A stretch of 64,000 nt of DNA, taken from contig NZ_FXWH01000001.1 of assembly GCF_900177775.1 (NCBI RefSeq), positions 186,001-250,000 of the forward strand, read 5' to 3'. The notes under the pieces are model-generated. The model saw only the letters and a list, made by a program, of their open reading frames with translations, did no database searches and was not told the origin of the DNA. This stretch comes from Pseudidiomarina planktonica (GTDB lineage Bacteria > Pseudomonadota > Gammaproteobacteria > Enterobacterales > Alteromonadaceae). This document shows positions 1-15,667 of this stretch, in pieces. A program made the translations under genes and the position numbers. Position 1 is the first letter of the stretch. Every line of letters starts with the position of its first letter.

Positions 1-2255
1 TTAACGGCGTGAGTTTGAGCCAACTTCCGATCGTAGGTGCGCTGGCTAATTCGGCGCAAATCGAGACGATTTATGCGCGAGATGACGTGTTATCCGTCTG
101 GAATAATGAAGCTTTGGAATACGAAAATGATGGCGCAACAAAGCTAACTGGAGTGCAAGAGCTCCGCGGCGATCAGGACCTTCGTAAGAATGGGATACCC
201 TATTCAGGACGAGGAATTGGTGTGGTCGTGAATGACTCGGGTGTCGATGGCACGCATAGCGATTTAATTTTTCCTGAGCATGTTGTTCAGAACGTGCTAG
301 CACAAACAAATTTGCAGAGCTTCAGTGACTTATTACCTATTACCTATCGCGAGAACGTTGCGAATACAGATATTGGTGGTGGGCATGGTACGCACGTGGC
401 AGGTACGGTTGGCGGTAACGGCGCAATGAGCAATGGCTTGCATGCTGGAGTTGCCCCTGGGGCCGACATTATCGGGTATGGTTCTGGTGCTGCATTATTT
501 ATTCTGGATACTTTGGGGGGCTTTGATTATGCCCTTACTCACCAGTTCGAATATAACATACGCGTGATTTCTAATTCATTCGGCAGTACCGCTGACACAG
601 GCACGGACTTTAACCCTGACCATCCAACCAACGTCGCCTCAAAAGCGCTTGCTGATAATGGGATCATTACTGTGTTCTCCGCAGGCAACTCAGGTCCGGG
701 TGAGTCGACTATTACAGGAAACTTCAAGAAAGCACCTTGGGTAGTTACTGTTGCGGCTGGTGATAAAGATGGCAACCTTGCCGATTTTAGTTCACGCGGA
801 GTTGATGGCAAATCAGGAACCGCGACGGTAGATGGTATCGAGTATGTTTGGGAGGATCGCCCTACAGTCACAGCGCCAGGTGTTGATATTATTTCAGCCC
901 GTGCTTCAACATCGAGTCTGGGGGGATTAAGTGCCTCAAAAGACGAAGAGTTGATTGCACCTGAACACTTGGCCTTTTACACCACATCAAGCGGTACCTC
1001 GATGTCTGCGCCGCACGTATCCGGTATTGTTGCCTTGATGCTGGAAGCGAATCCAAATCTTAACTGGCAACAAGTCAAACAGATACTGCAAGATACGGCA
1101 ACAGTAATACCAGGACGCGAAGCCTGGGAAGTAGGTGCTGGCTATGTTAACGCTTACGCTGCGGTAAAAGCTGCAATTGAAATGGACGAACGATTTGGCG
1201 ATACCACTAAACTTAATCGTGAATTTAATGCCAGCGCTAATGTTACAGAAGGGCAGAGTTTCACTCGCACCGTTGATTACACGGTTGCTGGTGAAAGCGA
1301 TTTTGAAACCTTTGACGTTAATGACAGCACGTCACTTGTATTAGCGAGTGCAAATATTGAAAGTGGTACCGCATTCGTGCTGGAAGATCCTGCTGGAAAC
1401 ACCTACGGATCAGGTATAGGTTTGCCAGTGCTTGGTTCATCGGTGGGAACCTCGGCGCCGGGAATGCCGGGTACCTGGAAAGTATACGTTCGAGGTATTG
1501 GCAGCGTTAGTGGCGTATCGGTCGATCCTACGGGACTCACAAACGGTATTGGGCTTCCAGGTTCGGTTGATGTCAGTATCCGTTTATTAGAAACCAACGG
1601 TTACGACGGTATTGACGATGCCGCGGGTCATCCGGGTCGCGCTTTCATTGAGTATGCAATTAGCGAACGATTAATGGATGCAGAAGCTGACGGCTTCAAT
1701 CCAGATGAGTCGGTAGCCAAACAAACTCTGGCTGATGTCTTAACCTTGAGCGGCTCGGTCCGTCAGGCTCAGGAAGGCAATAAGCAAATATACTTAGACT
1801 CAACATCAACAAATGCAGCAATGCTTAATGCGGTAAGTCAAAAAGGAGCTACTTTGAAAGACGCTGGCTATGATTTTGCTTCGGTATTGCCGGCAGAGTC
1901 TCCAGACTTTTTTGGTAGTGATGAATTGGTAACCCATGAACGTTTGGCGTACTCGTTGGTTCAATCGCTTGGTTTAGAATCTGCTGCGAAATCCTTTGAT
2001 CCGGCTCAGGATGTTCAGGTTGTGGTTTTTGATCAGGTTGTGACCTTAAGTGATAGTGATAATATTGCACCAGAACTTAAGGGTTACGTACAAGTAGCTT
2101 TGCACATGGGTCTACTTAATGCGCAAATTAAAGTAGAGCAAGATGCGTTTGACCTTGAACCAACATTGACAGCAACTTTTGCTCCTGAGCGGCACTTTTC
2201 GCGCGCTGAGCTAGCTAAGGCAGTAACACGCTTACATCCGCTTATTAGTCAGTAA
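1..2255 (+). CDS. Secreted S8 subtilisin-like serine protease with SLH-like C-terminus (5' end cut by window)
   Basis: Extracellular or surface endopeptidase of the subtilase family. The gene is cut by the window edge: the frame is open from base 1, and the residues around the GTG at 9 align with an internal stretch of the next gene (NGVSLSQLP versus DGVQFSSLP), so that GTG is a valine, not a start. Numbering from it, the triad is Asp76 (NDSG), His126 (GHGTHVAG) and Ser331 (GTSMSAPH), with oxyanion Asn227 (SAGNSG). The catalytic domain covers about 65-390. A beta-sandwich-like region follows (about 400-530). Two SLH-like modules come last (about 533-585 and 685-742), with GHPGRAFIEYAISERLMD and FSRAELAKAVTRL as the recognisable parts. 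The signal peptide lies outside the window. It is paralogous to the next gene over its whole length. The protease call is firm; surface anchoring by the C-terminus is inference. Confidence 0.95.
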   Translation, partial: NGVSLSQLPIVGALANSAQIETIYARDDVLSVWNNEALEYENDGATKLTGVQELRGDQDLRKNGIPYSGRGIGVVVNDSGVDGTHSDLIFPEHVVQNVLAQTNLQSFSDLLPITYRENVANTDIGGGHGTHVAGTVGGNGAMSNGLHAGVAPGADIIGYGSGAALFILDTLGGFDYALTHQFEYNIRVISNSFGSTADTGTDFNPDHPTNVASKALADNGIITVFSAGNSGPGESTITGNFKKAPWVVTVAAGDKDGNLADFSSRGVDGKSGTATVDGIEYVWEDRPTVTAPGVDIISARASTSSLGGLSASKDEELIAPEHLAFYTTSSGTSMSAPHVSGIVALMLEANPNLNWQQVKQILQDTATVIPGREAWEVGAGYVNAYAAVKAAIEMDERFGDTTKLNREFNASANVTEGQSFTRTVDYTVAGESDFETFDVNDSTSLVLASANIESGTAFVLEDPAGNTYGSGIGLPVLGSSVGTSAPGMPGTWKVYVRGIGSVSGVSVDPTGLTNGIGLPGSVDVSIRLLETNGYDGIDDAAGHPGRAFIEYAISERLMDAEADGFNPDESVAKQTLADVLTLSGSVRQAQEGNKQIYLDSTSTNAAMLNAVSQKGATLKDAGYDFASVLPAESPDFFGSDELVTHERLAYSLVQSLGLESAAKSFDPAQDVQVVVFDQVVTLSDSDNIAPELKGYVQVALHMGLLNAQIKVEQDAFDLEPTLTATFAPERHFSRAELAKAVTRLHPLISQ

Positions 2256-2357: not shown

Positions 2358-2375
2358 ATGAGGGTGATCCCTCAT
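2358..2375. promoter_or_regulatory. Short inverted repeat in the promoter region of the second subtilase
   Basis: ATGAGGG / CCCTCAT arms (7 bp) are separated by 4 bases, in the 137-base gap between the first terminator and the second subtilase. There is no T-tract after it, so it is more likely an operator or leader hairpin than a terminator. No regulator can be named from sequence. Confidence 0.3.
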
Positions 2376-2450: not shown

Positions 2451-4928
2451 ATGAAAAAACTCACTCTATCCACTATCGCAGCATTGAGTTTGTCTGTTGC
2501 ACCAGCTCAAGCAGCCATTGAAGCTGTTATTGGCGAGCAGCTGCAAGCAAAACTTCCAACTTTAGCGGCAACTGAAACGGTGATGGCAGTCATTACTTAT
2601 GATCAACTTGAACCAGTATCCGAAGCGCAAATTCAATCGCTACTAAATCTGAATATCACCGATGGTGTTCAGTTTTCTTCTTTACCGACTATTGGTGTAT
2701 TAGCGACTGCGGATCAAATTCAACAGATAGCTAAACAAAGCGATGTGCGTTCAATATGGCTGAATCGCCAGTTAGATTATTACAATGCAGACGCGCGACA
2801 GATAACCGGCGTTGAGCAATTACAGAGTAACGAGTTTATTGAACGTAATAATACTCAGTTCTCTGGCAACGGCGTAACGATAATGGTTAACGACAGTGGT
2901 ATTGATGCTGCACATCAAGATCTGCTATTCGGCGACACCGTGGTAGAAAATGTGCAAGCGCTTACCCACGCTCAAGCAATCCGTTTAGTTGCACCGACAG
3001 ATGGTTTTGTTTTAGAGGGGCAGGTGAATACCGATTTAAATAGTGGGCACGGAACACATGCTGCGGGGACCGTAGCCGGTGACGGGTCTATGTCTGACGG
3101 CAAGTACAAGGGTGCAGCCCCTGATGTTGATATCGTTGGGTATGGTTCAGGAGCCGCCATTTCAATTCTCGACGCTGTTGGTGGCTATGACTATGCAATA
3201 AATAATATCTACGCATTTAAGTCGCCGATTCGGGTTATGAGTAACTCCTGGGGCACAAGCGGCAAATTCAGCCCGGATAGCCCTGTAAGTATTGCGTCTT
3301 ACAAAGCATACAAGCTGGGTATTCTGTCGGTATTTGCCGCCGGTAACTCAGGGCCGGGCGAAGACAGTCATAATCCTTATGCACAAATTCCATGGGGTAT
3401 TTCAGTTGGTGCCGGAGATAAGTTTGGCAATCTTGCCGGATTTTCCTCACGCGGTTTGCAAGGTGAGTCTGGTACTTTCACTATGCCAGATGGTGAGGAA
3501 TGGACGTATGAGAATGAGGTTACTATTGTTGCACCCGGAGTTGACATCATTTCTGTCCGAGCGAGTACAAACTTAGCGGCTAATGGCGGAGACTCTGACT
3601 TAGAAGCTATTGAAGCGGAATATTTGCCGTTCTACACCATGATTTCTGGTACTTCAATGGCCACACCGCATGTGGCGGGTATTATCGCGCTGATGCTTGA
3701 AGCAAACCCAGACTTATCGCCGCTCGAAATTAAGCGCTTGTTAGAAGAAACAGCCACCAATATGCCTGGCTTTGAAAAGTGGGAAGTGGGTGGCGGTTAC
3801 GCCAATGCGAAAGCAGCTGTTGCGGGAGCCTTGGGTAACGATCTTGAGTACGCATCCAGTGTAAATAACCTGACTACTTTTAATGCCAATGCATTAATGG
3901 AACCGAGTGATCGCGTGGACAATTTCGAGGTGCTTTATAGCCCAGTAGGAGAGCCAGAAACATACAGTTTCAACGTTGGGCCTGAAGCGGCGTGGGTAAA
4001 AGTCAGCGCGAATACAGACGCTAACACGACGAAATTGGTACTGGTAGCGCCCGATGGCACCGAATATTTCGGAAACCTTACCTTACCCGTTTTAAACACT
4101 GGCATGAGAGTCTCGGCACCAGCAGCAGTGGGTACATGGCAAGTTTATGTTTATGGATTAACATCGTTATCGGGAGTAGATCCTGACCCACTTGATGTAA
4201 CCAATGGTCCGGGTGTGCCGGAAGTCATCTCTGGCACCATTAGCTTTTTGAATAGCGGAGGCTATGAAGGCGTTGACGACATTGAAGGGCATCCGCAGCA
4301 AAATGCGATAGAGTTTGCGGTTTCTGAACGATTGATGGACGGTTTCAATACAGTGAAGTTTCGCCCTGATCATGAATTGAAACGCCAAGACTTAGCGCAG
4401 TATTTGGTGATGGGTTCCGCCGTGCGCCAATATCGGGATTTGTTAAATGAACCAGCGCCAAATTTGGGTCGCGTGAATCAAGGCTATGAAGCTTTTGCAG
4501 AAGCGGTCTCAAGCCGTGGGTCAGTACTAAAAGATGAGCTGCAACAGCAGGAGCCGTTATTTGTTAATACCAATGGTTTTGACGGAAAGGGTTCCGTGAG
4601 CAAGCTTGATTTAGCTTATATGCTGGTAAGCGCGCTTGGCCTTCAGGAAGAAGCAAAAGCTTTTGGGGCAAATAAAGACATTATTGTTGATTACCGTGGT
4701 GAACAAATCGTTTTGAAAGATCAGGATGAAATTCCTGCTGCGCTCAGAGGTTTTGTGCAATTAGCAATCAACTACTCACTGCTAAATGTTCAATATGGCG
4801 TCGAGCAAGATGCTTTTGATTTGGAACCTAAGTTAACAGCCGAATTCTCAGCCAATGAAAGTATCAGCCGAGCACGTTTTGCTGTTATCGCTGGCCGCTT
4901 CTATTCCAACTACTTTGAAGTTCAATAA
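2451..4928 (+). CDS. Secreted S8 subtilisin-like serine protease with SLH-like C-terminus
   Basis: Complete 825-residue paralogue of the preceding protease. I chose the ATG at 2451, preceded by an AGGA ribosome site, because it opens directly into a Sec signal peptide (MKKLTLSTIAALSLSVAPAQA, cleavage after residue 21); the GTG at 2421 would put ten polar residues in front of it. Triad: Asp148 (NDSG), His200 (GHGTHAAG), Ser402 (GTSMATPH), with oxyanion Asn299 (AAGNSG). An inhibitor-I9-like propeptide plausibly occupies about 22-110. A beta-sandwich-like region and two SLH-like modules follow the catalytic domain; GHPQQNAIEFAVSERLMDG and ISRARFAVIAGRF are the clearest parts. It should act outside the cytoplasm on proteins or large peptides. 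Its own terminator follows. The family is certain; substrate and anchoring are not known. Confidence 0.96.
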   Translation: MKKLTLSTIAALSLSVAPAQAAIEAVIGEQLQAKLPTLAATETVMAVITYDQLEPVSEAQIQSLLNLNITDGVQFSSLPTIGVLATADQIQQIAKQSDVRSIWLNRQLDYYNADARQITGVEQLQSNEFIERNNTQFSGNGVTIMVNDSGIDAAHQDLLFGDTVVENVQALTHAQAIRLVAPTDGFVLEGQVNTDLNSGHGTHAAGTVAGDGSMSDGKYKGAAPDVDIVGYGSGAAISILDAVGGYDYAINNIYAFKSPIRVMSNSWGTSGKFSPDSPVSIASYKAYKLGILSVFAAGNSGPGEDSHNPYAQIPWGISVGAGDKFGNLAGFSSRGLQGESGTFTMPDGEEWTYENEVTIVAPGVDIISVRASTNLAANGGDSDLEAIEAEYLPFYTMISGTSMATPHVAGIIALMLEANPDLSPLEIKRLLEETATNMPGFEKWEVGGGYANAKAAVAGALGNDLEYASSVNNLTTFNANALMEPSDRVDNFEVLYSPVGEPETYSFNVGPEAAWVKVSANTDANTTKLVLVAPDGTEYFGNLTLPVLNTGMRVSAPAAVGTWQVYVYGLTSLSGVDPDPLDVTNGPGVPEVISGTISFLNSGGYEGVDDIEGHPQQNAIEFAVSERLMDGFNTVKFRPDHELKRQDLAQYLVMGSAVRQYRDLLNEPAPNLGRVNQGYEAFAEAVSSRGSVLKDELQQQEPLFVNTNGFDGKGSVSKLDLAYMLVSALGLQEEAKAFGANKDIIVDYRGEQIVLKDQDEIPAALRGFVQLAINYSLLNVQYGVEQDAFDLEPKLTAEFSANESISRARFAVIAGRFYSNYFEVQ

Positions 4929-4938
4929 GTTTACTTTG

Positions 4939-4963
4939 GGGGTTCGAAAGAACCCCTTTATTT
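4939..4963 (+). terminator. Rho-independent terminator after the second subtilase
   Basis: A GGGGTTC / GAACCCC stem on a GAAA tetraloop is followed by TTTATTTTC. It starts 10 bases after the stop codon. Confidence 0.88.
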
Positions 4964-5044
4964 TCAAGGGGTGACATTTTGTACAGTAAGGAGTAACTTA
5001 TTTACAAAATGTTTCAAAATGTTTCTACATATGGAGGCTCAATA

Positions 5045-5866
5045 ATGACGCTTTTACGCCTTATATTTTTAACAGCTTTACTGCTGCCAGCTTCAGCGAA
5101 AGCTTTATCGGTTGATGTTAACTTTAACCAGGCTGCAAACTCGGTGAATGCCGAGATCGATTTATCGTCAACGGTAAGTTTAGATTTTTCCGTTGGCTTT
5201 GAGAAAGCGGTGGGATTAACGCCACAAAATTTCAGTATTGATGCGGAATTGGTCAGTTTGACAGATCCCCGAGTGGTCAACCGTTTACCGACGAGTCTGT
5301 TAACGAGTTTACCAGCTGCATTTCCAGTGCTGATTTCTGTTGAGCCTGACCCAACCAAGGGATTTGCTTTTAGTGGCGCCGCGACTATCGAGTTGTACAC
5401 AAAGAGTTTGCATTATACCCAAGGCACACCATTGCGCCTTTTTCACGCACATGGCGATGAAACCTTCCAGGATATTACTTTAATGACAGGATCCGGAAGT
5501 TATCGTGTTCGCGGGAGTACGGGTCAGTTTTCGGACTTTCTTATCTTGGTGGATTTACGCGATAACCTAGACGTTATCAGTGATAAAGTTTCGCAATTAG
5601 AAAACTTTACCAACGCGGTAAGACAACAACTGAGCTTTGATGCAGAAACTCAACTGGTTGATTTAGTGCAAGAGCTGTCAAGTGCTTTAGACCAAGGTCA
5701 GCATCCACAAGCGATGACAGCACTCAATGAGCTCATTCATGTACTGGAGTCAGACAACGGCACTTTGTATCCGGATGTTTGGCGTTCATCTGATGACGTA
5801 ATTAATGTTCGAGGACGTTTGCTTAGTTTGACCCAGACACTTCGCTATAGCTTGCGAATTAATTAG
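5045..5866 (+). CDS. Secreted protein of unknown function, first gene of the FHA/kinase row
   Basis: I do not recognise a family. The ATG at 5045 has a strong GGAGG site seven bases upstream and opens into a signal peptide (MTLLRLIFLTALLLPASAKA), which decides the start over the in-frame ATG at 5009. The mature protein of about 250 residues has a beta-rich first half (alternating hydrophobic stretches, many Thr/Ser/Val) and a helical second half with coiled-coil character from about residue 175. It has no cysteine and no metal motif. It lies 11 bases before the FHA gene, so it is probably co-transcribed with it. It could be a periplasmic input protein for the kinases downstream; that is inference from position only. 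Confidence 0.8.
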   Translation: MTLLRLIFLTALLLPASAKALSVDVNFNQAANSVNAEIDLSSTVSLDFSVGFEKAVGLTPQNFSIDAELVSLTDPRVVNRLPTSLLTSLPAAFPVLISVEPDPTKGFAFSGAATIELYTKSLHYTQGTPLRLFHAHGDETFQDITLMTGSGSYRVRGSTGQFSDFLILVDLRDNLDVISDKVSQLENFTNAVRQQLSFDAETQLVDLVQELSSALDQGQHPQAMTALNELIHVLESDNGTLYPDVWRSSDDVINVRGRLLSLTQTLRYSLRIN

Positions 5867-5877
5867 GCTAGTGAATT

Positions 5878-6729
5878 ATGCCGATCAGCTGTCAAATTTT
5901 GTTTCGTGACCGCTTTGTACCTAAGGTCACCTTGTTCGAACAAAGAGACTATTTATTCGGCCGCGATTCAAAGTGTGACGTTATTTTAGATCATGCGGAT
6001 GTATCGCGGTGTCACGCTCATGTTCGTTTTGATGGCGTGCATTGGCAAATTAATGACCTAAATAGCACCAATGGTATATGTCTAAATGGGCAGCGAGGGA
6101 ATCGATTCCAGCTTGATACACCTATGGTGCTAACCCTTGGCTCGTTGGATTTGCAGCTAACCCCTATCAGCCATGTTGAGTTAACGACCGATATAAATCA
6201 TGCTGCCTGGCTTCGCAAAAGAGTGCAATCGGCACTGATTCAGTGTGCGAACGAGAAGTCTATAGAAGGTATGCTAGGTAGCGCGCAACAGACCGCCAAC
6301 GCGTTGCTCGGCAGCGACCGGGCGGCACTCATTTTTCTTGATTCAAACGCTTCTATTCTTGCTTGCAGAGGTTATCCTCAGTGGCTTATGGATGAGGCTT
6401 TCGATGGCTCTACAACGCTAATCAAGCAGGCGGTAAAAACGGCTGCTCCCGTTGCCGCTAATAATGCTCAAACCCATCATCATTTAAAGTATCAACCCAG
6501 TGTTCAACGGCATCGAATAAAAGCGGCAATAGCTTGCCCGGTCATTCAAGCGGGTCAGGTGATAGCTGTTTTTTACGCGGACAGCCTGCGTGATCATCAT
6601 CGTTTTACTCAGCAGGATATCGATCTTTTACAGGCCTATGCACGGCAATTGTCTCTTCATTTAGCCTTGAGAAGTATCGATGAGCAATTCGACCAGCTTG
6701 AACACCGTCTGCACAGACACTACGGCTAA
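5878..6729 (+). CDS. FHA and GAF domain signalling protein
   Basis: Cytoplasmic signalling protein of 283 residues with no signal peptide or membrane segment. The N-terminal FHA domain (about 5-95) has the phosphothreonine-binding set: Gly28-Arg29, Ser43-Arg44, His46, and the NSTNG turn at 62-66. A GAF-like domain covers about 110-265 (ending in DIDLLQAYARQLSLHLALR), typical of small-ligand or redox sensing. A short helical tail follows. FHA domains bind phosphothreonine peptides, and the next gene is a Ser/Thr kinase, so that kinase is the obvious partner. No enzyme output domain is present, so it is probably an adaptor or a sensor that feeds the kinase. The FHA call is firm; the GAF call rests on position and general pattern. 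Confidence 0.9.
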   Translation: MPISCQILFRDRFVPKVTLFEQRDYLFGRDSKCDVILDHADVSRCHAHVRFDGVHWQINDLNSTNGICLNGQRGNRFQLDTPMVLTLGSLDLQLTPISHVELTTDINHAAWLRKRVQSALIQCANEKSIEGMLGSAQQTANALLGSDRAALIFLDSNASILACRGYPQWLMDEAFDGSTTLIKQAVKTAAPVAANNAQTHHHLKYQPSVQRHRIKAAIACPVIQAGQVIAVFYADSLRDHHRFTQQDIDLLQAYARQLSLHLALRSIDEQFDQLEHRLHRHYG

Positions 6730-6811
6730 TATTCTAAAAAACTCATACCTCACGTTATCTTGTGCTAGGTTGTAGGCATCCTATGTTGTGTCTTTATGGA
6801 GTAAACTGGGC

Positions 6812-9800
6812 ATGGTTCAGGACGACTCGCGATCAACACCTATGAACACTGTTACTCAATCATTGCAAGGAGGTTCGTTTCTTGCAAAAGGCACGTTGTT
6901 GGCTGAACGGTTCAAAATAACTGAGTTACTAGGGCACGGCGGACAGGCACAAGTGTATCGCGCTTACGACCAGGTATTGGCGACGGAAGTAGCATTAAAA
7001 ATCGTTTCAACTGGTCATCAGCTAGCACAATCGGAAATCGATAGCTTACGCAATGAGGTTCTGCTCGCACGACAACTGAGCCATCCTAATATCGTTCGAA
7101 TCTACGAATTTTATCAAACCAGCGACTATGTTTTTTTCACCATGGCGTTAGTTTCGGGTAACTCTCTGGCTGCTGCATTGGAACAAGGCATAAAACCGGA
7201 GCAGATTGACTATTGGGTTAAGCAGCTTCTTGATGCACTGCAGGTTTGTCACGAAGCCGATATTGTGCATGGGGATGTCAAACCAGCCAATATTATGATT
7301 ACCGCTGACGATGAATTAGTCCTCGTCGATTTTGGGATTGGTAAACATTTAGCAGAACCCATCCAAACAGCGGGTACAAATGAGTTTTTGGCACCTGAAG
7401 TGAAAGAGTCCGGTAGCGTTTCAGCGGCCAGTGACCGTTATGCTGCCGGCAAGGTCCTTGATGCTATGTTAAATGCCATGAGTGGCGACAAGACACCCAG
7501 TCGACTCTCAAGTTGGCGACGACGGCGTCAGCATATTGCTATTGGCTTGCAACATCCGGCGCCATATCAACGGCTATCTATAGCTGCTTGTAAAGACTTA
7601 CTCGAAGCAAGGCGAAGCTCGATTTCGAACCTTGTGATTGGTTTTATCGGGGTAGTGCTTGTCATAATCGTTGGGCTACTAAGTTTGCAGTGGTATGGCG
7701 ACGAAACTGCGGATGGAGCAGCGGATAGTGCGACCACAGTCATTGCTATTAGTACCGAATTTAACGACGCTGAGTTGGTTGATATTGCTGAAATGACCCA
7801 GTTGTCCTTGCAGATACAACCGAGTATTTACGCGTTAGAGCTGAGTCAGGTACAAAGGATTCAGAATAACCTTGCGATAGTACCAAGTGACTCGTCAGGT
7901 GACCGTGAACGTTTAGCTAAACTAGTTAATAGTCAGCTATTACTTGTTCTGAGCCGTCGTCAACTTGACGGAAGTAATTTCATTCATCTTCTAATTACCG
8001 AATCCCCGGGTGACCGTGTTCTGGTAAATACTCAATTTGATTTGGCTAACTATAAATTATCGACACTACCGGAATTTTTTATAGAAATAATCATGAGTCA
8101 GTTGGATCAAGATTTGGAACCTCTTGAGTATGATGAATCAGTAGCTTCCCTATTTCAGTCTATCGATCAGGCTCTCGCGCAAGATAATAAAGAAAAAGCG
8201 GAGCAACTTCTTGCTCAACTTAAAGAAAGAAAGGTAAGTGTATTTTGGGTGCTCCGAGGCGAAGCATTGCTTGCTGCAAATAAAGGCAACTTTGAACAGG
8301 CAAAGCAAGTTTTAGATAGGTTAATGAAAAGCTATCCAAATAGACCTGACTTGTTAGCAGAGCGAGGGGCGTTAGCATTCGCCACGAATGATTTGACAGA
8401 TGCAAAGAAATTTTATGAGCAAGCAGTAGCAGGCGATCCGAGTCAAGCTATGTGGTGGTTTGAGTTAGCGAAAATTAAAATTATACAAGGTGATATTCGC
8501 CCTGCATTGAATAATGAACTGCTGCAGGCACTGGTAAAGTTTCGTCAGAGCGAGGATGTGGAAGGCCAAGGTCTTGTACTAAATGCGTTTGGTGTTGCGC
8601 ATTTACGACTCGCTGAGTTTAGCGCCGCTGCCGACTATTTTTCGCAGTCGTTGGTATATCGAACGGCAGATTTGGCACCGGCAGAACGAGTAACGACCTT
8701 GTCCAATTTAGCCACTGCTCAGGCTATTGAGGGTAATTATCTGGCCGCAGATAAGAGCCTGAATGAAGCGCAACAGGTGGCTGTGGGATTAAACGACCGC
8801 TTGGGATTGGCGCACATCGAAAATGAGCGTGGTTTATTGATGGAAGAGCAAGGGTTTTATCAGGAAGCGCTCCGATATTATAAAACAGCACTTGATATAC
8901 GACTGCAAGTTGGTGAAAGCTACCTGCAGAGTCAGAGTATTAACCATGTTGCGTTTATTCATTTTCTGTTGGGTGACTTCAGCTTAGCAGAAGTGTATTG
9001 GCGACAAGCGGTAGACGTTTTAAAGGACATGGAAGAAGTCGCAGTACTACACAGCACTCAGACTAACCTTGCTCAATTGTTGGTAATACGTGGGCAATTT
9101 CAGCAAGCGGAGCAACTGCTTTCTGAAATTTTGTCTGACAACGATTTGAGTCGCGAAGCAGAGTTTGCGACCTACCTTCAATTAAGTAAGTTGAACTTTG
9201 CGCAAAGCCGAGCGAATGTTGCTGCGGAAAACATTTCGACAGCTATTGCCATAGCGAAGCAGATTACGGATAACCGAGCGGTAACTGAGAGTTTACTTTG
9301 GGCTGCAGAAATCGCGGCTAACTTGCATCAAATGGAAAAATTTAATAACCACTTAAGCGAACTTGATAAATTAGTAACTGACTTTAATAGGGAACAGAGA
9401 GTTTATTATGAGTGGCTGCTAATTAGAAAAAGTTTAGCTTCAGATAGGGCCGAAGCTTACGGTGAGGCAGTAGCATTCATTGGAAAAGTTCTCGAGCAAC
9501 CGCTGTCACGTATTACGGAAGCAAAAATTTTCTCAGATTTGGTAAGTCGCTTTGACTTTCCAGAAAATAACGGAGTTTGGGCGCGGCTGGAGCAGATTGT
9601 TAGTCCTGCCATGTACGAGGCGTATATGGCATATCTGTCTGGGCAAGATTCAACCAGTGCAGAGCAAAGTCTGCTGACACAATTAGAGCGTTACCCTCAA
9701 TATTGGCGTAATTATGAGTACTTCTCGGAGCTATCTTATGATGATACAAAAAAACGTGCATCAAGCTCATTGCAACGCTTTTATAGTCGGATGAATGATG

Positions 9801-9841
9801 AGCAACGACAAGCCTATGAAAAATTTGTCAGCTCCCGCTGA
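6812..9841 (+). CDS. Membrane-anchored Ser/Thr protein kinase with large repeat-rich C-terminal half
   Basis: Hanks-type kinase of about 1009 residues. From the ATG at 6812 (GGAG ten bases upstream; a GTG at 6788 is the alternative), the kinase domain spans about 33-265. It has a glycine loop (GHGGQAQVY), Lys63 in VALKI, the catalytic loop HGDVKPANI with Asp155, DFG at 173-175 and APE at 194-196. The usual HRD arginine is glycine, so control by activation-loop phosphorylation may be weak. One membrane helix (about 273-293) is followed by some 700 residues outside the kinase domain, most of them TPR-like helical repeats from about 430 on. If the kinase is cytoplasmic the repeats are periplasmic and could sense proteins or peptides. 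It follows the FHA gene by 82 bases and its 3' end overlaps the histidine kinase gene. Confidence 0.93.
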   Translation: MVQDDSRSTPMNTVTQSLQGGSFLAKGTLLAERFKITELLGHGGQAQVYRAYDQVLATEVALKIVSTGHQLAQSEIDSLRNEVLLARQLSHPNIVRIYEFYQTSDYVFFTMALVSGNSLAAALEQGIKPEQIDYWVKQLLDALQVCHEADIVHGDVKPANIMITADDELVLVDFGIGKHLAEPIQTAGTNEFLAPEVKESGSVSAASDRYAAGKVLDAMLNAMSGDKTPSRLSSWRRRRQHIAIGLQHPAPYQRLSIAACKDLLEARRSSISNLVIGFIGVVLVIIVGLLSLQWYGDETADGAADSATTVIAISTEFNDAELVDIAEMTQLSLQIQPSIYALELSQVQRIQNNLAIVPSDSSGDRERLAKLVNSQLLLVLSRRQLDGSNFIHLLITESPGDRVLVNTQFDLANYKLSTLPEFFIEIIMSQLDQDLEPLEYDESVASLFQSIDQALAQDNKEKAEQLLAQLKERKVSVFWVLRGEALLAANKGNFEQAKQVLDRLMKSYPNRPDLLAERGALAFATNDLTDAKKFYEQAVAGDPSQAMWWFELAKIKIIQGDIRPALNNELLQALVKFRQSEDVEGQGLVLNAFGVAHLRLAEFSAAADYFSQSLVYRTADLAPAERVTTLSNLATAQAIEGNYLAADKSLNEAQQVAVGLNDRLGLAHIENERGLLMEEQGFYQEALRYYKTALDIRLQVGESYLQSQSINHVAFIHFLLGDFSLAEVYWRQAVDVLKDMEEVAVLHSTQTNLAQLLVIRGQFQQAEQLLSEILSDNDLSREAEFATYLQLSKLNFAQSRANVAAENISTAIAIAKQITDNRAVTESLLWAAEIAANLHQMEKFNNHLSELDKLVTDFNREQRVYYEWLLIRKSLASDRAEAYGEAVAFIGKVLEQPLSRITEAKIFSDLVSRFDFPENNGVWARLEQIVSPAMYEAYMAYLSGQDSTSAEQSLLTQLERYPQYWRNYEYFSELSYDDTKKRASSSLQRFYSRMNDEQRQAYEKFVSSR

Positions 9842-10559
9842 TGTTCTTGAACTAGTTAAACAGTTGCGCACGCAGCAAGAAGCTCTGCGTGAGCAATTGC
9901 GACTGGAGCAAACTACCTTGCAGACTTTGGCTCGTCGCCTTTGGCTGCAACAGGAGCATGAGCGGGCTAAGTTATCACGCGAGCTTCATGATGGGGTGGG
10001 CCAGTTATTAACCGGTTTAAAAACCCAACTGGGGCAGGCTGCTAAAACAAATAACGAATTAGAGAGTTTGTACCACACCGCTAGTGCTGCGGTGGAGAGT
10101 ATCCGTTCGCTATCCAGATTGATGCACCCAACCGTTTTAACCGATCTGGGTATAGCGGCGGCTATCTCATGGCTTAATCGACAGATGCTCCAACCAGCCG
10201 GAGTCGCCTGTGAAACCGAGTTGGATATACCATCTAACATTGATATGGATCTCCAAATATTTCTTTTTCGAATTATTCAGGAAGCCATGGTGAATACGGT
10301 TAAACATGCGCGAGCTCAGCGATTTTCAATTTATCTGATGTACGCGTCCGACAGCTTGCGGCTAGATATGCTTGATAATGGCAAAGGCTTTGTTGTGGGT
10401 AAAGAGACTGAAGGACTAGGCTTACAGAGCATGCGAGATCGCTGCGAGGCGTTTGGGGCTCATTTTACAATCAGTAGTTCACCTGGTAATGGGTGCCAGA
10501 TATCTATCAGCCTTCCTTATCAGTACAAGGAAATGCCCATGGCTTCTGACCTATTATGA
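9795..10559 (+). CDS. Soluble NarX/DegS-type histidine kinase
   Basis: Cytoplasmic two-component kinase of 254 residues with no membrane segment and no recognisable sensor domain. An N-terminal coiled coil (about 18-60) leads into the HisKA_3 box LSRELHDGVGQ with phospho-acceptor His65. The HATPase domain shows Asn167 (IQEAMVNTVKHA), DNGKGF at about 194-199, and a GLGLQSMRDR box. The start is uncertain: ATGs at 9795 and 9798 lie inside the kinase gene, and the ATG at 9816 would give MKNLSAPAD. Overlap with the Ser/Thr kinase upstream and an ATGA overlap with the regulator downstream imply coupled translation. With no input domain of its own, it probably takes its signal from a partner, such as the FHA protein or the Ser/Thr kinase. 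Confidence 0.93.
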   Translation: MMSNDKPMKNLSAPADVLELVKQLRTQQEALREQLRLEQTTLQTLARRLWLQQEHERAKLSRELHDGVGQLLTGLKTQLGQAAKTNNELESLYHTASAAVESIRSLSRLMHPTVLTDLGIAAAISWLNRQMLQPAGVACETELDIPSNIDMDLQIFLFRIIQEAMVNTVKHARAQRFSIYLMYASDSLRLDMLDNGKGFVVGKETEGLGLQSMRDRCEAFGAHFTISSSPGNGCQISISLPYQYKEMPMASDLL

Positions 10560-11200
10560 TCAAATTGATTCTGGCTGATGACCATACCTTGGTGCGGCAC
10601 GCGATTGCTCAGTCTTTAGAGGCTACAGGTCAATTCACTGTAGAGTGTGAGTGTGCGGATGGAAATGAATTATACCGTGCCGCATTAAGCGTTCCAGCCG
10701 ATGTGATTTTAATGGATATATCCATGCCCAAAATGAATGGTTTTGTGGCGCTTGAAAAGATACTTCAGCAGCGACCGCAGATGAAGGTTTTAGCCCTTAG
10801 CATGCACAGCGACCAAGAGTACATTGATGCGATTCGCCGAGGAGGTGCACGCGGTTATGTTTTCAAAGATGCCACGACCGAAGAACTGACCGATGCTATT
10901 TTGCGCGTATGGAATGGCAAAACATTCTTTCCAGTTAGTGATGAGAGGTCGACTAACAAGGTATCGACACATAACGTTAATAAACTTTCCGGCGCGCAAT
11001 TAGATAGATTGACACGTCGTGAGCGGGAGGTGTTTTTTCTAGTGGTTGCTGGTCGGTCGACGCGGGAAATAGCGGCCTTGCTCGCAATGTCACCGAAAAC
11101 AGCCGAAAATCACCGCGGCAAGGTATTGAAGAAGTTGGAAGTAGCAAATACTGTCGAACTAATTCATTTTGCGGCGAAGAGTGGTTTGTTAGAGCCCTGA
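10556..11200 (+). CDS. NarL/FixJ-type response regulator
   Basis: DNA-binding response regulator of 214 residues, the partner of the histidine kinase with which it shares ATGA at 10556-10559. The receiver domain (1-120) has the acidic pair Asp8-Asp9, phospho-acceptor Asp54 (VILMDISMP) and the lysine in YVFKDA. A LuxR-type helix-turn-helix covers about 145-205 (LTRREREVFFLVVAGRSTREIA, split here as LTRREREV and STREIAALLAMSPKT). Targets are not known. The 350-base gap that follows, with repeated GTTACA words before the TonB receptor gene, is a plausible binding region. Confidence 0.95.
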   Translation: MIKLILADDHTLVRHAIAQSLEATGQFTVECECADGNELYRAALSVPADVILMDISMPKMNGFVALEKILQQRPQMKVLALSMHSDQEYIDAIRRGGARGYVFKDATTEELTDAILRVWNGKTFFPVSDERSTNKVSTHNVNKLSGAQLDRLTRREREVFFLVVAGRSTREIAALLAMSPKTAENHRGKVLKKLEVANTVELIHFAAKSGLLEP

Positions 11201-11550
11201 TTAGCCTAATAGTAAGTCTGTTGTGATTACCCCGCTCAGATAGCTTAAATTCCTGTGCGGACCTTTACCCTATGTTAGGTCGGCAGAGTCAGGCAATTAA
11301 ACATAACCGTCTATTTATTAGTGCTTTCCTTAATGAATCAAGTCGCATTCGCCATGACGAAACGTTTATATTTTCTTATATATACAACTTACTGGTAACG
11401 CTTGGTTACAAATTTATTGCAAATGTATTTAAGTTGTGTTGTTCTTCTTCTGCGCGGTCTAATGATCGGGCTGTATTGAACTGTTACATATAGTTACATT
11501 TCGCAATAATCATACAACTTAAAAAATAATAAAAACTCAGGGAGTTCCCC
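11201..11550 (+). other. Intergenic regulatory region before the TonB receptor gene
   Basis: 350 bases without a credible gene. It contains three GTTACA words (see the next entry), a direct repeat of ATACAACTTA at 11382-11391 and 11512-11521, and a GGGAG ribosome site just before the ATG at 11551. No terminator hairpin is visible after the response regulator gene. The 73-codon frame at 11272-11493 has no ribosome site and no family resemblance, so I do not call it. Confidence 0.6.
11394..11498. promoter_or_regulatory. GTTACA repeats, possible operator of the TonB receptor gene
   Basis: GGTAAC at 11394-11399 faces GGTTAC at 11404-11409, forming a GTAAC/GTTAC dyad with a 5-base spacer. Two GTTACA words sit exactly 10 bases apart at 11483-11488 and 11493-11498, on the same face of the helix. 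This suits a dimeric regulator such as the NarL-type protein encoded just upstream, but that link is inference. Confidence 0.35.
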
Positions 11551-14442
11551 ATGCACAAACAGTCAGTATTGACTCGTTCCATCCGAACGATTCTCTTCGC
11601 TGGTGTTAGCTCAGCATTGTTCGCTGTACCTGCATCTGCGCAAGATCAACAGCAAGAAGGCGCAGACGACCAAGAACGCGTCGAACGTGTTCAGGTTACC
11701 GGTTCTCGGATTGCACGGCCTGAGCTATCGCAAGCCGCACCTTTACTGGTTATCGGTGAAGAAGAAATCGAACGTTTTGGTACACCTGATTTAGGTTCAA
11801 TGCTAGCCGAATTGCCAGCCATTGGCGCAACTGACACGGTAATCGGTAACCGCGAATCCGGTGCCAGCGCAGGCGTGAGCTCTGCTGATTTACGTCGTCT
11901 TGGTGCAGCTCGTACGTTGGTACTCATTAACGGCAAACGTCATGTTGCCGGCGAGCCAGGCTCGGCTCAGGTCGACTTATCAAGTATTCCTTCCAGCATG
12001 ATTAAGCGTGTTGAAGTAGTTACCGGCGGCGCTTCGGCTATCTACGGTTCAGACGCGGTATCAGGCGTTGTAAACGTTATTTTGAAAGACGATTACGAAG
12101 GTTTGGAATTAAGCGTAACAGGTTCAGGTTCTACTGAAGGTGTTGGCGCTAAAGCACATCAATTTACTATTCTTGGTGGCGGCGACTTTTTGAATGGTCG
12201 TGGTAACGCAACGTTTTTTATGACGCAAACTCGTTTACAAGAAACTCTTGAAAACGACATTCGCCAATTTGAACGCTGGGGAACAGTTTTAAACCCAGAA
12301 GATACTGGTCGTTTAGATGGTATTCCTGATCGGATATACGCGAAAAACGTTGGTTCAGAAATGATTAACCGTTTCGGTGTTATTAACCCGTTCGGTGGTG
12401 GTCCGCGTTACACCTTTGGTGCTAACGGTGATCCAGTCTTACAGCAAACTCGCGATTTAGATAATAGCTTTGCATTCGGTAGTTTCCCGGATGGCTGCGA
12501 TACTTGCTTCTTTGGACAAGACTACGTTAACTATCAACCAGAGCTGCGTCGTGAAACTGTTGGTTCTACGCTGAACTTCCGTATTAACGATTCAGCTGAA
12601 CTGTATGGCGACTTCAAATACTCGCGTGCAGATATCGAACAGCAATTTCAACCGTCATTTCGTTTCGGAAACATCTCTATCGACGTAGAAAATAACGCAT
12701 TTATTGACGAACAGTTGCGGCAGGAGTTGCTGGACAACGGTCAGTCAACAGTCAGTATGGCTAAGTTTTTTGACGAATGGGGTAATCGTACTGCTGATAA
12801 CAAACGTCAAACATTTCGTGTTGTTTCTGGTGTGAAAGGCGCATTGGATATCGGTTCTACGCTGCTAGATTACGACCTGTATTACTCGTACGGAGAGACG
12901 TCGAACACTCGTAAAACACTTAATTCGATAGTTCCTGGTAACTTTGTTGCGGCGGTTAACTCAGAGATTGATCCTGAAACCGGAGATGCCGTTTGTGCAG
13001 ATCCATCGCAAGCTAGCGTGAACCCACAAAACTGTGTGCCTTACAATCCGTTCGGTTTTGGTCAAGCTTCACAAGACGCTATTGACTACGTATCGGCGGA
13101 CGTTACGCGCAGCGACACCATTACTCAGGAGTACGTTGGAGCTTCGTTTGTTACCGATACACGCGGTTTTCTAGAACTTCCTGCTGGTTATATTGACGTG
13201 GCTTTCGGTTTTGAATATCGCGAAGAAACGTCTGAAACCATTACTGACGAATTTACCCGTCGTGGTTTAACTGCTAACGCCGCAACTCCAAATGAATATG
13301 CGGATTACGACGTAAGCGAAGCCTTCGTTGAGGTAAATGTACCGCTTCTTGCTGATGTTGCTTTCGCGAAAGAGCTGAGTGTTGATGCTGCATTCCGCAA
13401 AGCTGATTATTCTCATGCAGGTAAAGCAGATGCATGGAAAGTTGGTGTTGTTTATGCCCCAGTTGATGACATTCGTTTTCGCGGTACTTTAGGCAAAGCT
13501 GTTCGTGCGCCAAACATCACCGAGGCCTTTAGTCCGCAATCGCCTGGATTCGCAAATGTATCGGATCCATGTGACGCCGATAACATTAATCAGAATCCTA
13601 ATCGCGCATCAAACTGTGCAGCCTTGGGCATTCCCGAGGGCTTCCAGGCAAATGATAACGTGAGTGTTGATCTGATTTCTGGGGGTAACCCAAATCTGAC
13701 CGCTGAAGAATCGGATTCAATGACCTTTGGTGTGGTTTATACACCATCATTCATTGAAAATTTCTCAATTACTGCGGATTTGTATGACATCGAGATCTCG
13801 GACGCGATCACCTTTATTGCTGCACAAACTGTTGTTGACAACTGTGTGGACTCTGAAGGCGGCCCGTCAGATACCTTCTGTACACAAGTTACTCGTGATC
13901 CCCAAAGCAACGATATTTCTTTAGTACAGTCTGGCTATTTAAACGCGGCAGCGTTGAATACCCGAGGTGTTGAAGTTGATATCAACTATCGCACCGACTT
14001 GGTGCGTTTCGACCTGCCTGGCGTATTGCAAACCAACTTGTTCATCAATCACTTGCTTGAATTGGAATCGTTTGAATTCCAAGACCAGCCTGATTTGAAC
14101 AATGATGAACGCGGTGAAGTAGGTGACCCTGAATGGCAAGCTCGCTTGTCGGTAACCTATGCATTAGACAACCTAAGCACGAACTGGTCAGCGCGTTATA
14201 TCGACCGTTCTGCATTGTTTGATGTAACACCACGGTTAGAGTCATATGAAAACGTATCACCTAACTACATCGGTTCTCTGGTAACGCATGATTTGTCAGC
14301 TAACTACAATGTAAGCGATAACTTTAGCGTAAACGCAGGTATCCGTAACGTGTTCGATAAAACTCCTCCAGGCTATACAGGTAATGCCTTGTATGACTTG
14401 GTTGGCCGCCGCTTCTTTGCCGGCGTTAAGTACACGTTTTAA
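11551..14442 (+). CDS. TonB-dependent outer-membrane receptor
   Basis: Energy-coupled outer-membrane transporter of 963 residues. The signal peptide ends at ...FAVPASA (residue 30). The plug domain covers about 45-170 (VQVTGSRIARPE at its start, then TLVLINGKRH and GASAIYGSDAVSGVVNVILK). The rest is a large barrel ending in the aromatic GVKYTF, as expected for BamA-dependent insertion. A TonB-box-like stretch ERVERVQVTGS precedes the plug. Proteins of this subtype in marine Alteromonadales are often linked to peptide or oligomer uptake; here the neighbouring secreted proteases suggest peptides, but the substrate cannot be read from sequence. It has its own leader region and a strong terminator. 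Confidence 0.96.
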   Translation: MHKQSVLTRSIRTILFAGVSSALFAVPASAQDQQQEGADDQERVERVQVTGSRIARPELSQAAPLLVIGEEEIERFGTPDLGSMLAELPAIGATDTVIGNRESGASAGVSSADLRRLGAARTLVLINGKRHVAGEPGSAQVDLSSIPSSMIKRVEVVTGGASAIYGSDAVSGVVNVILKDDYEGLELSVTGSGSTEGVGAKAHQFTILGGGDFLNGRGNATFFMTQTRLQETLENDIRQFERWGTVLNPEDTGRLDGIPDRIYAKNVGSEMINRFGVINPFGGGPRYTFGANGDPVLQQTRDLDNSFAFGSFPDGCDTCFFGQDYVNYQPELRRETVGSTLNFRINDSAELYGDFKYSRADIEQQFQPSFRFGNISIDVENNAFIDEQLRQELLDNGQSTVSMAKFFDEWGNRTADNKRQTFRVVSGVKGALDIGSTLLDYDLYYSYGETSNTRKTLNSIVPGNFVAAVNSEIDPETGDAVCADPSQASVNPQNCVPYNPFGFGQASQDAIDYVSADVTRSDTITQEYVGASFVTDTRGFLELPAGYIDVAFGFEYREETSETITDEFTRRGLTANAATPNEYADYDVSEAFVEVNVPLLADVAFAKELSVDAAFRKADYSHAGKADAWKVGVVYAPVDDIRFRGTLGKAVRAPNITEAFSPQSPGFANVSDPCDADNINQNPNRASNCAALGIPEGFQANDNVSVDLISGGNPNLTAEESDSMTFGVVYTPSFIENFSITADLYDIEISDAITFIAAQTVVDNCVDSEGGPSDTFCTQVTRDPQSNDISLVQSGYLNAAALNTRGVEVDINYRTDLVRFDLPGVLQTNLFINHLLELESFEFQDQPDLNNDERGEVGDPEWQARLSVTYALDNLSTNWSARYIDRSALFDVTPRLESYENVSPNYIGSLVTHDLSANYNVSDNFSVNAGIRNVFDKTPPGYTGNALYDLVGRRFFAGVKYTF

Positions 14443-14493: not shown

Positions 14494-14608
14494 ATTCAAA
14501 TGTCGACTCTGAAAAGATTCGATAATCGATTTTGGCGCTTTAAACGTAATTCAATTTAGGACTATCAATAGAAACAGCCATATTTCAAAGATGATGGACG
14601 ATATCGCA

Positions 14609-15667
14609 ATGCCATTAATCAAAGCTATTTTTGGAATTGTTCTAGCAACCGCTGCTGGGCATGCTGTTGCCGGAAGCGCTGACTGGAACCTTAACGGTAA
14701 CGCAGTGCTTATTCACCAAAGCACAAACGAAATAAATGCTGAAACTGAGTTTAGCGCCTCAGGCGACCTGGTGATCACGCGACAACTTGGCTCTGGTGAG
14801 TGGCTGGCTCACGTGGAGGCAAGCAGTGCTCCAACATCAGACGGGGTGTCTTCGGTTTATCCTGAGGTAAATGAAGACGCAGGGTCCGCACTTGATAAGA
14901 ACAACAATGGCCGTATCCAGCTGTCAGAATTATACTATACCCATTCTTTTCGTAATCGGCAGAGTGTATCTCTTGGCTTAATTGACCTTTCGGGGCTTTT
15001 TGATCAAAGCCAGATAGCCAGCGACGAGACCACACAGTTTCTTGGTTCTTCGTTTGCCCGAAATATCACCATCGAATTTCCGGATTACACCTTAGGCGTT
15101 GTTCATAACTCTAAGTTATCGAGCAACCTTGAATGGCGGTCAGCCATTGCCAGCTCAAATGGCTTAGCTGATAACCCAGAGCGTTCATATTCAGAGTTAG
15201 CCCGGCTATCTGCTGATGGCAAAGGGATGTTTGGTATTACATCGGCCAGTTGGCAAGCAAACGAGTGGCTGTTTCGTGCTGGCGCCTGGCTAAATACTGC
15301 GGATCATCAAAGTTTGGATATGACGGAAGACGGCCTGACCAATTACGGGGCTTATGCGCTGGCCGAATACGCTCGTGGGCAGCATGCTGTAAATGTTCGT
15401 GTGGGCGCCGCTAACGCGGATACCAGTCAGGCAGCTAAATTCGCCAGTATCGCCTACCGTTACCAGTGGGATAAGTTAACCACCGGCGTTGCTTTTGGTC
15501 GCACTTTTGAATCGTCTAAGCTACCGGGCTCAACCCGAAGTGATACTAATCACTACGAGTTATTCCTGCGCTATAATTTAATGCCGAGCTTACAGCTTAC
15601 CGGCGATGTGCAGCGTTTTCAGAGTGCTACGGTTATGGGCGTGCGGCTAACCTGGCTTTACCAGTAA
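14609..15667 (+). CDS. Outer-membrane barrel-like (porin-like) protein with an EF-hand-like loop
   Basis: About 352 residues. I prefer the ATG at 14609 because it gives a normal signal peptide (MPLIKAIFGIVLATAAGHAVA); starting at 14591 would put two aspartates in the N-region. The mature chain alternates polar and hydrophobic residues, is rich in Trp/Tyr/Phe and ends in RLTWLYQ, which fits a carbohydrate-porin-like or general beta-barrel. A clear calcium-loop pattern, DKNNNGRIQLSEL, lies near residue 97. I cannot assign a named porin family. It follows the TonB receptor terminator, so it is probably transcribed separately. Specificity is unknown. Confidence 0.75.
   Translation: MPLIKAIFGIVLATAAGHAVAGSADWNLNGNAVLIHQSTNEINAETEFSASGDLVITRQLGSGEWLAHVEASSAPTSDGVSSVYPEVNEDAGSALDKNNNGRIQLSELYYTHSFRNRQSVSLGLIDLSGLFDQSQIASDETTQFLGSSFARNITIEFPDYTLGVVHNSKLSSNLEWRSAIASSNGLADNPERSYSELARLSADGKGMFGITSASWQANEWLFRAGAWLNTADHQSLDMTEDGLTNYGAYALAEYARGQHAVNVRVGAANADTSQAAKFASIAYRYQWDKLTTGVAFGRTFESSKLPGSTRSDTNHYELFLRYNLMPSLQLTGDVQRFQSATVMGVRLTWLYQ

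Follow-up and report, generated by a model that had tools for sequence, protein, structure and literature searches.

A conserved gene row joining a Ser/Thr kinase, an FHA/GAF protein and a sensorless two-component pair, predicted to control secreted subtilases in Gammaproteobacteria

The stretch of 64,000 nucleotides of the Pseudidiomarina planktonica genome (the window; contig NZ_FXWH01000001.1, positions 186,001 to 250,000) carries a row of five genes encoding a secreted-type DUF6689 protein, an FHA/GAF protein, a Ser/Thr kinase with tetratricopeptide repeats (TPRs) beyond a transmembrane (TM) helix, a histidine kinase without a sensor, and a NarL-type response regulator, in the neighborhood of two subtilase genes (S8a and S8b). 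It is probable that the Ser/Thr kinase, with its peptide-receptor-like TPR part, drives the sensorless two-component pair and that this pair governs the secreted subtilases. At the level of sequence, the gene set and its order are conserved, the catalytic and phosphothreonine-reading residues are intact, and a palindrome is common to the promoters of subtilase genes and of some modules. These comparisons support the five genes as one module of conserved order that is tied to subtilases; what we infer from them is that the regulator binds the palindrome, in which order phosphate passes along the row, what the ligand is, and whether control is positive or negative.

The row in the window is arranged as the original prediction described it, with four signaling proteins that use two phosphorylation chemistries and with every gene where it had been placed. 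The histidine kinase gene overlaps the Ser/Thr kinase gene, the regulator and histidine kinase genes overlap by 4 bases, and the kinase start ATG at 6812 leaves a gap of exactly 82 bases after the FHA/GAF gene. No sensor domain was detected in the histidine kinase, as had been proposed, nor was a TM segment, and the Ser/Thr kinase has a single TM segment (residues 282 to 300) between its kinase part and a large part matching Pfam TPR families, the latter also as proposed. The GAF domain of the FHA protein and the identity of DUF6689 are additions to that description.

The module was sought in other genomes by a scan for DUF6689, which gave 68 named loci, so the counts are conditional on that gene; relatedness inflates them, and the conservation and co-occurrence statistics are uncorrected for kinship. 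The order DUF6689, FHA/GAF, kinase, histidine kinase, regulator is kept in 64 of the 68 loci, from the Alteromonadales and Kangiella to the Xanthomonadales, and in the remaining four the contig ends inside the row, before the histidine kinase (in L091, the regulator itself is cut). The five-gene row is also present in all 15 loci of a second set, which was likewise found via DUF6689 and shares several contigs with the 68, so that the two sets are not additive. Module-bearing genera include Pseudidiomarina, Alteromonas, Marisediminitalea, Colwellia, Pseudoalteromonas, Kangiella, Pleionea, and Aliidiomarina, as well as Rhodanobacter, Lysobacter, Luteimonas, Arenimonas, Xanthomonas, and others, with the closest relative locus in Pseudidiomarina salinarum (DUF6689, 72%). 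DUF6689 (PF20396) is rare, being over the cut-off in 16 of 295 genomes of the order, in 3 of 369 genomes of a class sample, and in 3 of 398 genomes of a phylum sample, the same three genomes in both samples. A search of the 295 genomes with the FHA/GAF protein served as a control free of the bias from DUF6689-based locus finding. The genomes with a full-length match (E value of at most 3.3e-111) coincided exactly with the 16 DUF6689 genomes, and the next-best genome reached 2.4e-18, a wide gap to the module genomes; this search took at most the best 8 candidates per genome, and 8 of the 16 genomes were in the query alignment.

The proteases beside the row, pointed out in the original prediction, proved to be a lasting companion, with a subtilase present in 62 of the 68 named loci. 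In the Alteromonadales and Kangiella, the usual arrangement has S8b ahead of the row in the same orientation and S8a behind it, and in the Xanthomonadales the subtilase is divergent and adjoins DUF6689. The six loci without a linked subtilase are four of Aliidiomarina, L068, and L071. An S8b-type subtilase (E value of 1e-60 or better) was found in 15 of the 295 genomes, all within the 16 module genomes (Fisher 2.7e-24, relatedness uncorrected), among the best 3 candidates per genome, which in the window genome were the best 3 of 9.

In the aligned upstream regions of 13 Alteromonas loci, one conserved palindrome stands before S8b and one before S8a. The palindrome, TRRGGGN4CCCYYA, lies 64 to 76 bp upstream of three subtilase start codons in the window genome, namely, those of S8b, S8a, and an unlinked subtilase on another contig. 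The pattern TRRGGGNNNNCCCYYA has exactly 3 places in this 2.57-Mb genome, each upstream of one of the subtilases found, and the reversed pattern has none. Even with one mismatch allowed, the window holds no site besides the one before S8b (2359 to 2374), with a chance mean of 0.88 per window. The first operator guesses, TAGGGGNNANNCCCCTA and TAGGGNNAANNCCCNTA, occurred in the window in chance numbers and were discarded; they failed because the window variant reads TGAGGG...CCCTCA. The occurrence of the palindrome before subtilase genes is new in this analysis.

The pattern, set from the three sites of the window genome, was then applied to the 62 named loci that carry a subtilase. With up to one mismatch, a site was found before 87 of 104 subtilase genes of relatives versus 2 of 518 control genes, and with up to two mismatches, before 100 of 104 versus 21 of 518. 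The 104 genes exclude subtilase open reading frames (ORFs) of 300 aa or less or starting within 150 bases of a contig edge, as well as the six loci without a subtilase; the control genes are ORFs of at least 200 aa that start at least 700 bases from a subtilase start, with PEP-CTERM-like genes not among them. Starts were taken from the longest ORF, which places some high-GC starts too far upstream, and the sites of L086, L095, and L099 (at 9756, 9815, and 9868) fall outside the searched stretch. By group, the site with up to one mismatch was present in Pseudidiomarina (3/3), Alteromonas (26/26), Marisediminitalea and kin (7/8), Kangiella (20/20), Pleionea (1/1), Colwellia (7/10), Pseudoalteromonas (4/4), and one metagenome-assembled genome (1/1). 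Shuffled upstream regions gave a mean of 1.05 per 104, the G/C-swapped pattern gave 0 of 104, and other spacers gave 0 to 17; among 40 permuted half-sites, the median was 1, and the highest count, 79, belonged to a permutation still reading TAGGGG.

When 64 sites are aligned, positions +30 to +37 from the center are weakly conserved. This suggests a -10 box and places the operator center, read by eye, roughly at -43, a usual place for an activator. A tandem second site about 23 bp on was seen by eye in several Colwellia, Pseudoalteromonas, and Xanthomonadales rows. In five of the six loci without a subtilase (L049, L064, L069, L073, and L071), the site stands 96 to 165 bp before the DUF6689 ORF. 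The NarL-type regulator is the sole module protein that matches a DNA-binding domain, and since the site accompanies the module as well as the proteases, it is the likely binder of the predicted operator. A regulon link between the module and the subtilases is well supported by the sequences compared.

The original prediction had the regulator switch on the gene of the TonB-dependent receptor that starts at 11551, directly beyond the row. The receptor adjoins the row in the window. Of the 64 named loci whose contigs extend as far as the regulator, some stopping shortly beyond, L090 alone has a TonB receptor immediately downstream of the regulator. No TonB receptor was matched near the row in any of the 15 loci of the second set, and the predicted operator is absent from 11201 to 11550 at up to one mismatch, where a half-site-like match at 11256 to 11272 is within chance. 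The receptor was rejected as a target of the regulator because the linkage is not conserved and there is no operator at up to one mismatch; it seems from these comparisons to be a bystander, and activation of its gene by the regulator is very improbable. Another TonB receptor lies far upstream of the row in L086.

In an alignment of 61 kinase ORFs (those below 950 or above 1,200 aa being left out), the catalytic residues K71, D163, N168, and D181 are invariant, and a TM segment is called after residue 200 in 56 of the 61, being the sole segment in 50 of those 56. Charge favors an outside position of the TPR part in many of the kinases, not in all. H65, D66, and Q70 of the histidine kinase and the phosphorylation residues D8, D9, D54, and K104 of the regulator are invariant in 65 of 65 sequences, and the regulator recognition helix (K181, T182, E184, N185, H186, and R187) is kept in 64 of 65, with one gap. 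A conserved Arg and a conserved Ser form part of the phosphothreonine site of FHA domains. As far as sequence goes, this site is present in the FHA/GAF proteins, with G28 and R29 in 67 of 69 and S43 and H46 in 68 of 69, the rest being gaps. On the cytoplasmic side, the kinase alignment has just two columns, 118 and 215, that are Ser or Thr in at least 75%.

The window genome holds no Hanks kinase over the cut-off other than the Ser/Thr kinase of the row; a weak, below-cut-off protein kinase match lies in a 682-aa frame at G000:C2:93990-94169. A PP2C phosphatase partner was considered and rejected, as PP2C_2 (PF13672), the one phosphatase family searched for, has no match in the genome. A reading of the row as a defense system was also set aside. 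The kinase has 34 PADLOC matches, and the 25 listed all fall within residues 17 to 249, the generic kinase domain; S8b matches the general model 'subtilase' (2.4e-28), and the FHA and DUF6689 proteins match none.

The outer part of the kinase was modeled with a predicted local distance difference test score (pLDDT) of 91.8 as an alpha/beta domain followed by a TPR superhelix. In a second-look structural ranking (VIA), Rap with CSF peptide (4gyo) came first (Z 25.0, 335 aligned, root mean square deviation of 5.1), followed by Rap of phi3T with pheromone (23.4), APPBP2 with degron (23.1), Rap of pLS20 with Phr (23.1), MalT domain III (22.1), and NprR (21.9). Conservation peaks at model residues 251 to 480 (mean of 0.55 versus 0.34 to 0.39 elsewhere), and four Asn columns conserved above 70% (297, 338, 418, and 458) fall at almost the same place on the helix in four out of five successive repeats. 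An Asn ladder of such a kind is a feature of peptide-binding TPRs. The model suggests that the TPR part binds a peptide ligand. The original prediction had the repeats sense proteolysis products; a predicted periplasmic location and the Rap- and NprR-like second look make the sensing of a peptide a fair guess. The AlphaFold2 model of DUF6689 (pLDDT of 95), a beta sandwich plus a helical bundle, gave no informative structural relative. Its matches to ZU5/GAIN/FIIND-like sandwiches (Z 5 to 6) and, for the helical part, to 7nsn (Z 8.1; Foldseek 2.3e-4) are within or at the noise band of the tool and were not used to assign a function.

Taken together, the row would be a dedicated control module for secreted subtilases, which are the predicted targets of the regulator. 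The kinase would be a membrane sensor whose periplasmic TPR superhelix binds a peptide-like ligand, perhaps pieces of protease substrates or a portion of secreted DUF6689, and ligand binding would determine how active the kinase is in the cytoplasm. Threonine phosphorylation would be read by the FHA/GAF protein through its FHA domain, and this protein would act on the soluble histidine kinase, which lacks a sensor of its own. The histidine kinase would phosphorylate the NarL-type regulator, and the latter would bind TRRGGGN4CCCYYA near -43 of the subtilase promoters and raise, or less likely lower, subtilase expression, with the module co-expressed with S8b or autoregulated like it. A fuller version, in which the receptor-like Ser/Thr kinase, by a periplasmic peptide-binding TPR domain of Rap/NprR type, replaces the sensor of the histidine kinase in a mixed-chemistry three-step phosphorelay, the FHA/GAF protein is the converter, and peptides derived from the subtilases or from DUF6689 close a feedback loop, is put forward tentatively as possible but rather doubtful. 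If it is true, the cell senses peptides from its own subtilases (or derived from DUF6689) and adjusts the subtilase regulon by feedback. Because a regulon and a short DNA site are predicted, the question of whether a Ser/Thr kinase can act as the sensor of a histidine kinase is directly testable in cultured marine bacteria, and the module offers a proposal for the way in which secreted proteases are regulated in some marine and soil Gammaproteobacteria.

Several observations weigh against control of the subtilases by such a kinase-driven pair. The Xanthomonadales fit less well, with a site before 18 of 31 subtilase genes at up to one mismatch. In Alteromonas indica (L068 and L155), which has no linked subtilase, the stretch before DUF6689 lacks a site even with one mismatch allowed, and G658 (L156) has the module with neither a site at up to two mismatches nor a matched subtilase within 19 kb. 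The exact pattern has 0 to 4 places in each of 15 other module genomes (reversed control, 0 to 3) and 0 to 5 in each of 15 module-free genomes (control, 0 to 4), and these similar counts mean that the pattern alone is not specific outside the window genome. Only the best 3 of 9 subtilase candidates of the window genome were scored, so subtilases free of the site are possible there, and the absence of the S8b type from other genomes rests on the best three candidates in each. On the sensor side, no conserved Thr for the FHA domain was picked out in the kinase, the window protein has His at 418, one of the four Asn positions, and Foldseek ranks Ctr9, SPY, OGT, and other TPR proteins first for the TPR model, not Rap; repeat proteins also reach high Z scores easily, as the ranking tool notes. 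In addition, in DegS/DegU of Bacillus subtilis, the closest precedent, protease production was not increased by a Ser phosphomimetic of DegS, a histidine kinase that the Hanks kinase YbdM phosphorylates on Ser76 (PMC3033389).

That no conserved Thr target was picked out in the kinase also fits a different arrangement, in which the histidine kinase and regulator control the subtilases via the palindrome, and the kinase and FHA protein, co-inherited only, form a branch of their own with other target proteins, such as those of secretion or the envelope; PpkA-Fha1 is a known FHA-kinase pair acting on secretion (PMC6213207). This arrangement is unlikely given that the histidine kinase, without a sensor domain or TM segment, needs an input, that the FHA/GAF protein and DUF6689 co-occur in 16 of 16 genomes and genes of the row overlap, and that the genome holds one Hanks kinase over the cut-off. 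Another transcription factor might also bind the palindrome, with the link between module and subtilases reflecting the monitoring of their products or of the envelope. The module genomes without a site near the module (G658 and Alteromonas indica) would agree with such a factor, but among the annotated ORFs of the mapped neighborhoods the regulator is the only recognized DNA-binding protein conserved with the subtilases and the sites, and the site precedes the module itself in five of six loci without a linked subtilase, which makes this explanation quite improbable. We keep the kinase-driven two-component pair as the preferred reading.

The features of the window are collected in Table 1. 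In the gap between S8b and DUF6689, a hairpin (best 34-base fold of -14.2 kcal/mol, without a shuffle control) is followed by a T-rich stretch and may act as a partial terminator that lessens read-through from the protease gene into the signaling genes. The same gap in 13 relatives gave best 34-base folds of -12.4 to -22.0 kcal/mol, also without a shuffle control.

Table 1. Genes and predicted elements in and around the module (window positions unless marked G000)
Feature	Position	Strand	Basis or remark
Subtilase S8a, cut at window edge	1..2255	+	Pfam Peptidase_S8, E 2.2e-39
S8a, whole gene	G000:C5:185787-188255		822 aa; its operator at G000:C5:185704-185719, outside the window
Predicted operator TGAGGGTGATCCCTCA	2359..2374	.	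76 bp before S8b ATG
Subtilase S8b, signal-peptide-like start	2451..4928 (longest ORF from 2421)	+	Peptidase_S8, E 1.4e-39; weak SLH match, 9.6e-5
Hairpin then T-rich stretch, S8b/DUF6689 gap	4938..4964	+	
DUF6689 secreted-type protein	5045..5866 (longest ORF from 5009)	+	PF20396, 250 bits (Pfam cut-off 27)
FHA/GAF protein	5878..6729	+	Pfam FHA 8.9e-16, GAF 7.4e-16
Ser/Thr kinase, TM helix, predicted periplasmic alpha/beta and TPR parts	6812..9841 (longest ORF from 6788)	+	Pkinase 2.4e-40, TPR families
Sensorless histidine kinase	9795..10559	+	HisKA_3, HATPase_c
NarL-type response regulator	10556..11200	+	Response_reg, GerE
TonB-dependent receptor	11551..14442	+	Neighbor, judged outside the module
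OprB-like porin	14591-15667	+	After the TonB receptor

Operator-like sites were also observed before other genes. Some Kangiella loci (e.g., L044 and L046) have a third subtilase upstream of S8b, also with the operator, and in L068 and L155 a site with one mismatch stands before a 181-aa gene adjoining the regulator. A small secreted-type protein that adjoins S8a in L043 (19457-19999, minus strand) has no Pfam match and ends in a tail that we take to be a PEP-CTERM-like motif, as do those encoded at L042:18800-19321, L056:18918-19421, and L061:19028-19618. An operator-like site lies 60 to 137 bp before this ORF in L043, L042, and L056 and at the longest-ORF start in L061, which makes the PEP-CTERM-like protein a possible extra member of the predicted regulon.

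No description of such a module was found in the titles and abstract starts of the literature searched, a weak negative given that several queries returned nothing. DegS/DegU of Bacillus subtilis control secreted subtilisin and are the nearest functional look-alike, with a soluble HisKA_3 kinase without a membrane sensor and a NarL-type regulator. Unlike DegS, which has its own input domain, the window histidine kinase shows none (only HisKA_3 and HATPase_c at a Pfam E value of 0.001), and the shared operator of the subtilases is here predicted from sequence. The available part of PMC3033389 gives no link of the B. subtilis Hanks kinase genes to degS, whereas here the genes form one conserved row.

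Cross-talk between Hanks kinases and two-component systems has mostly been reported case by case. In PknL-NarS, Stk1-AlgR, STK-VraTSR, WalRK, and GraSR, a general kinase modifies a two-component system that has its own sensor. Ser/Thr phosphorylation tunes the histidine kinase or regulator in these cases (PMC12189002). The module differs in that its kinase gene shares one conserved row with a sensorless pair and an adjacent FHA/GAF gene, which brings both chemistries together.

FHA, Ser/Thr kinases, and a histidine kinase also meet in one pathway in Myxococcus, with EspA and PktA5/PktB8. There, the FHA domain is inside EspA, whereas here it belongs to a separate FHA/GAF protein (with a weak match to the EspA model, 1.7e-5) and the histidine kinase has HisKA_3 and HATPase_c only. 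The modeled TPR superhelix of the module kinase may resemble those of Rap and NprR of the RRNPP family, its best second-look matches (Z 21 to 25), with other TPR proteins ranked first by Foldseek. RRNPP receptors are cytoplasmic Gram-positive proteins with a helix-turn-helix or Spo0F-binding part, whereas the module protein is a Ser/Thr kinase with one predicted TM helix before TPRs that are predicted to be periplasmic. PASTA kinases (PknB/Stk1/PrkC) carry extracellular PASTA repeats; in the module kinase, PASTA repeats were not matched (NF033483, 152.5 bits versus a cut-off of 450), and TPRs stand in their place.

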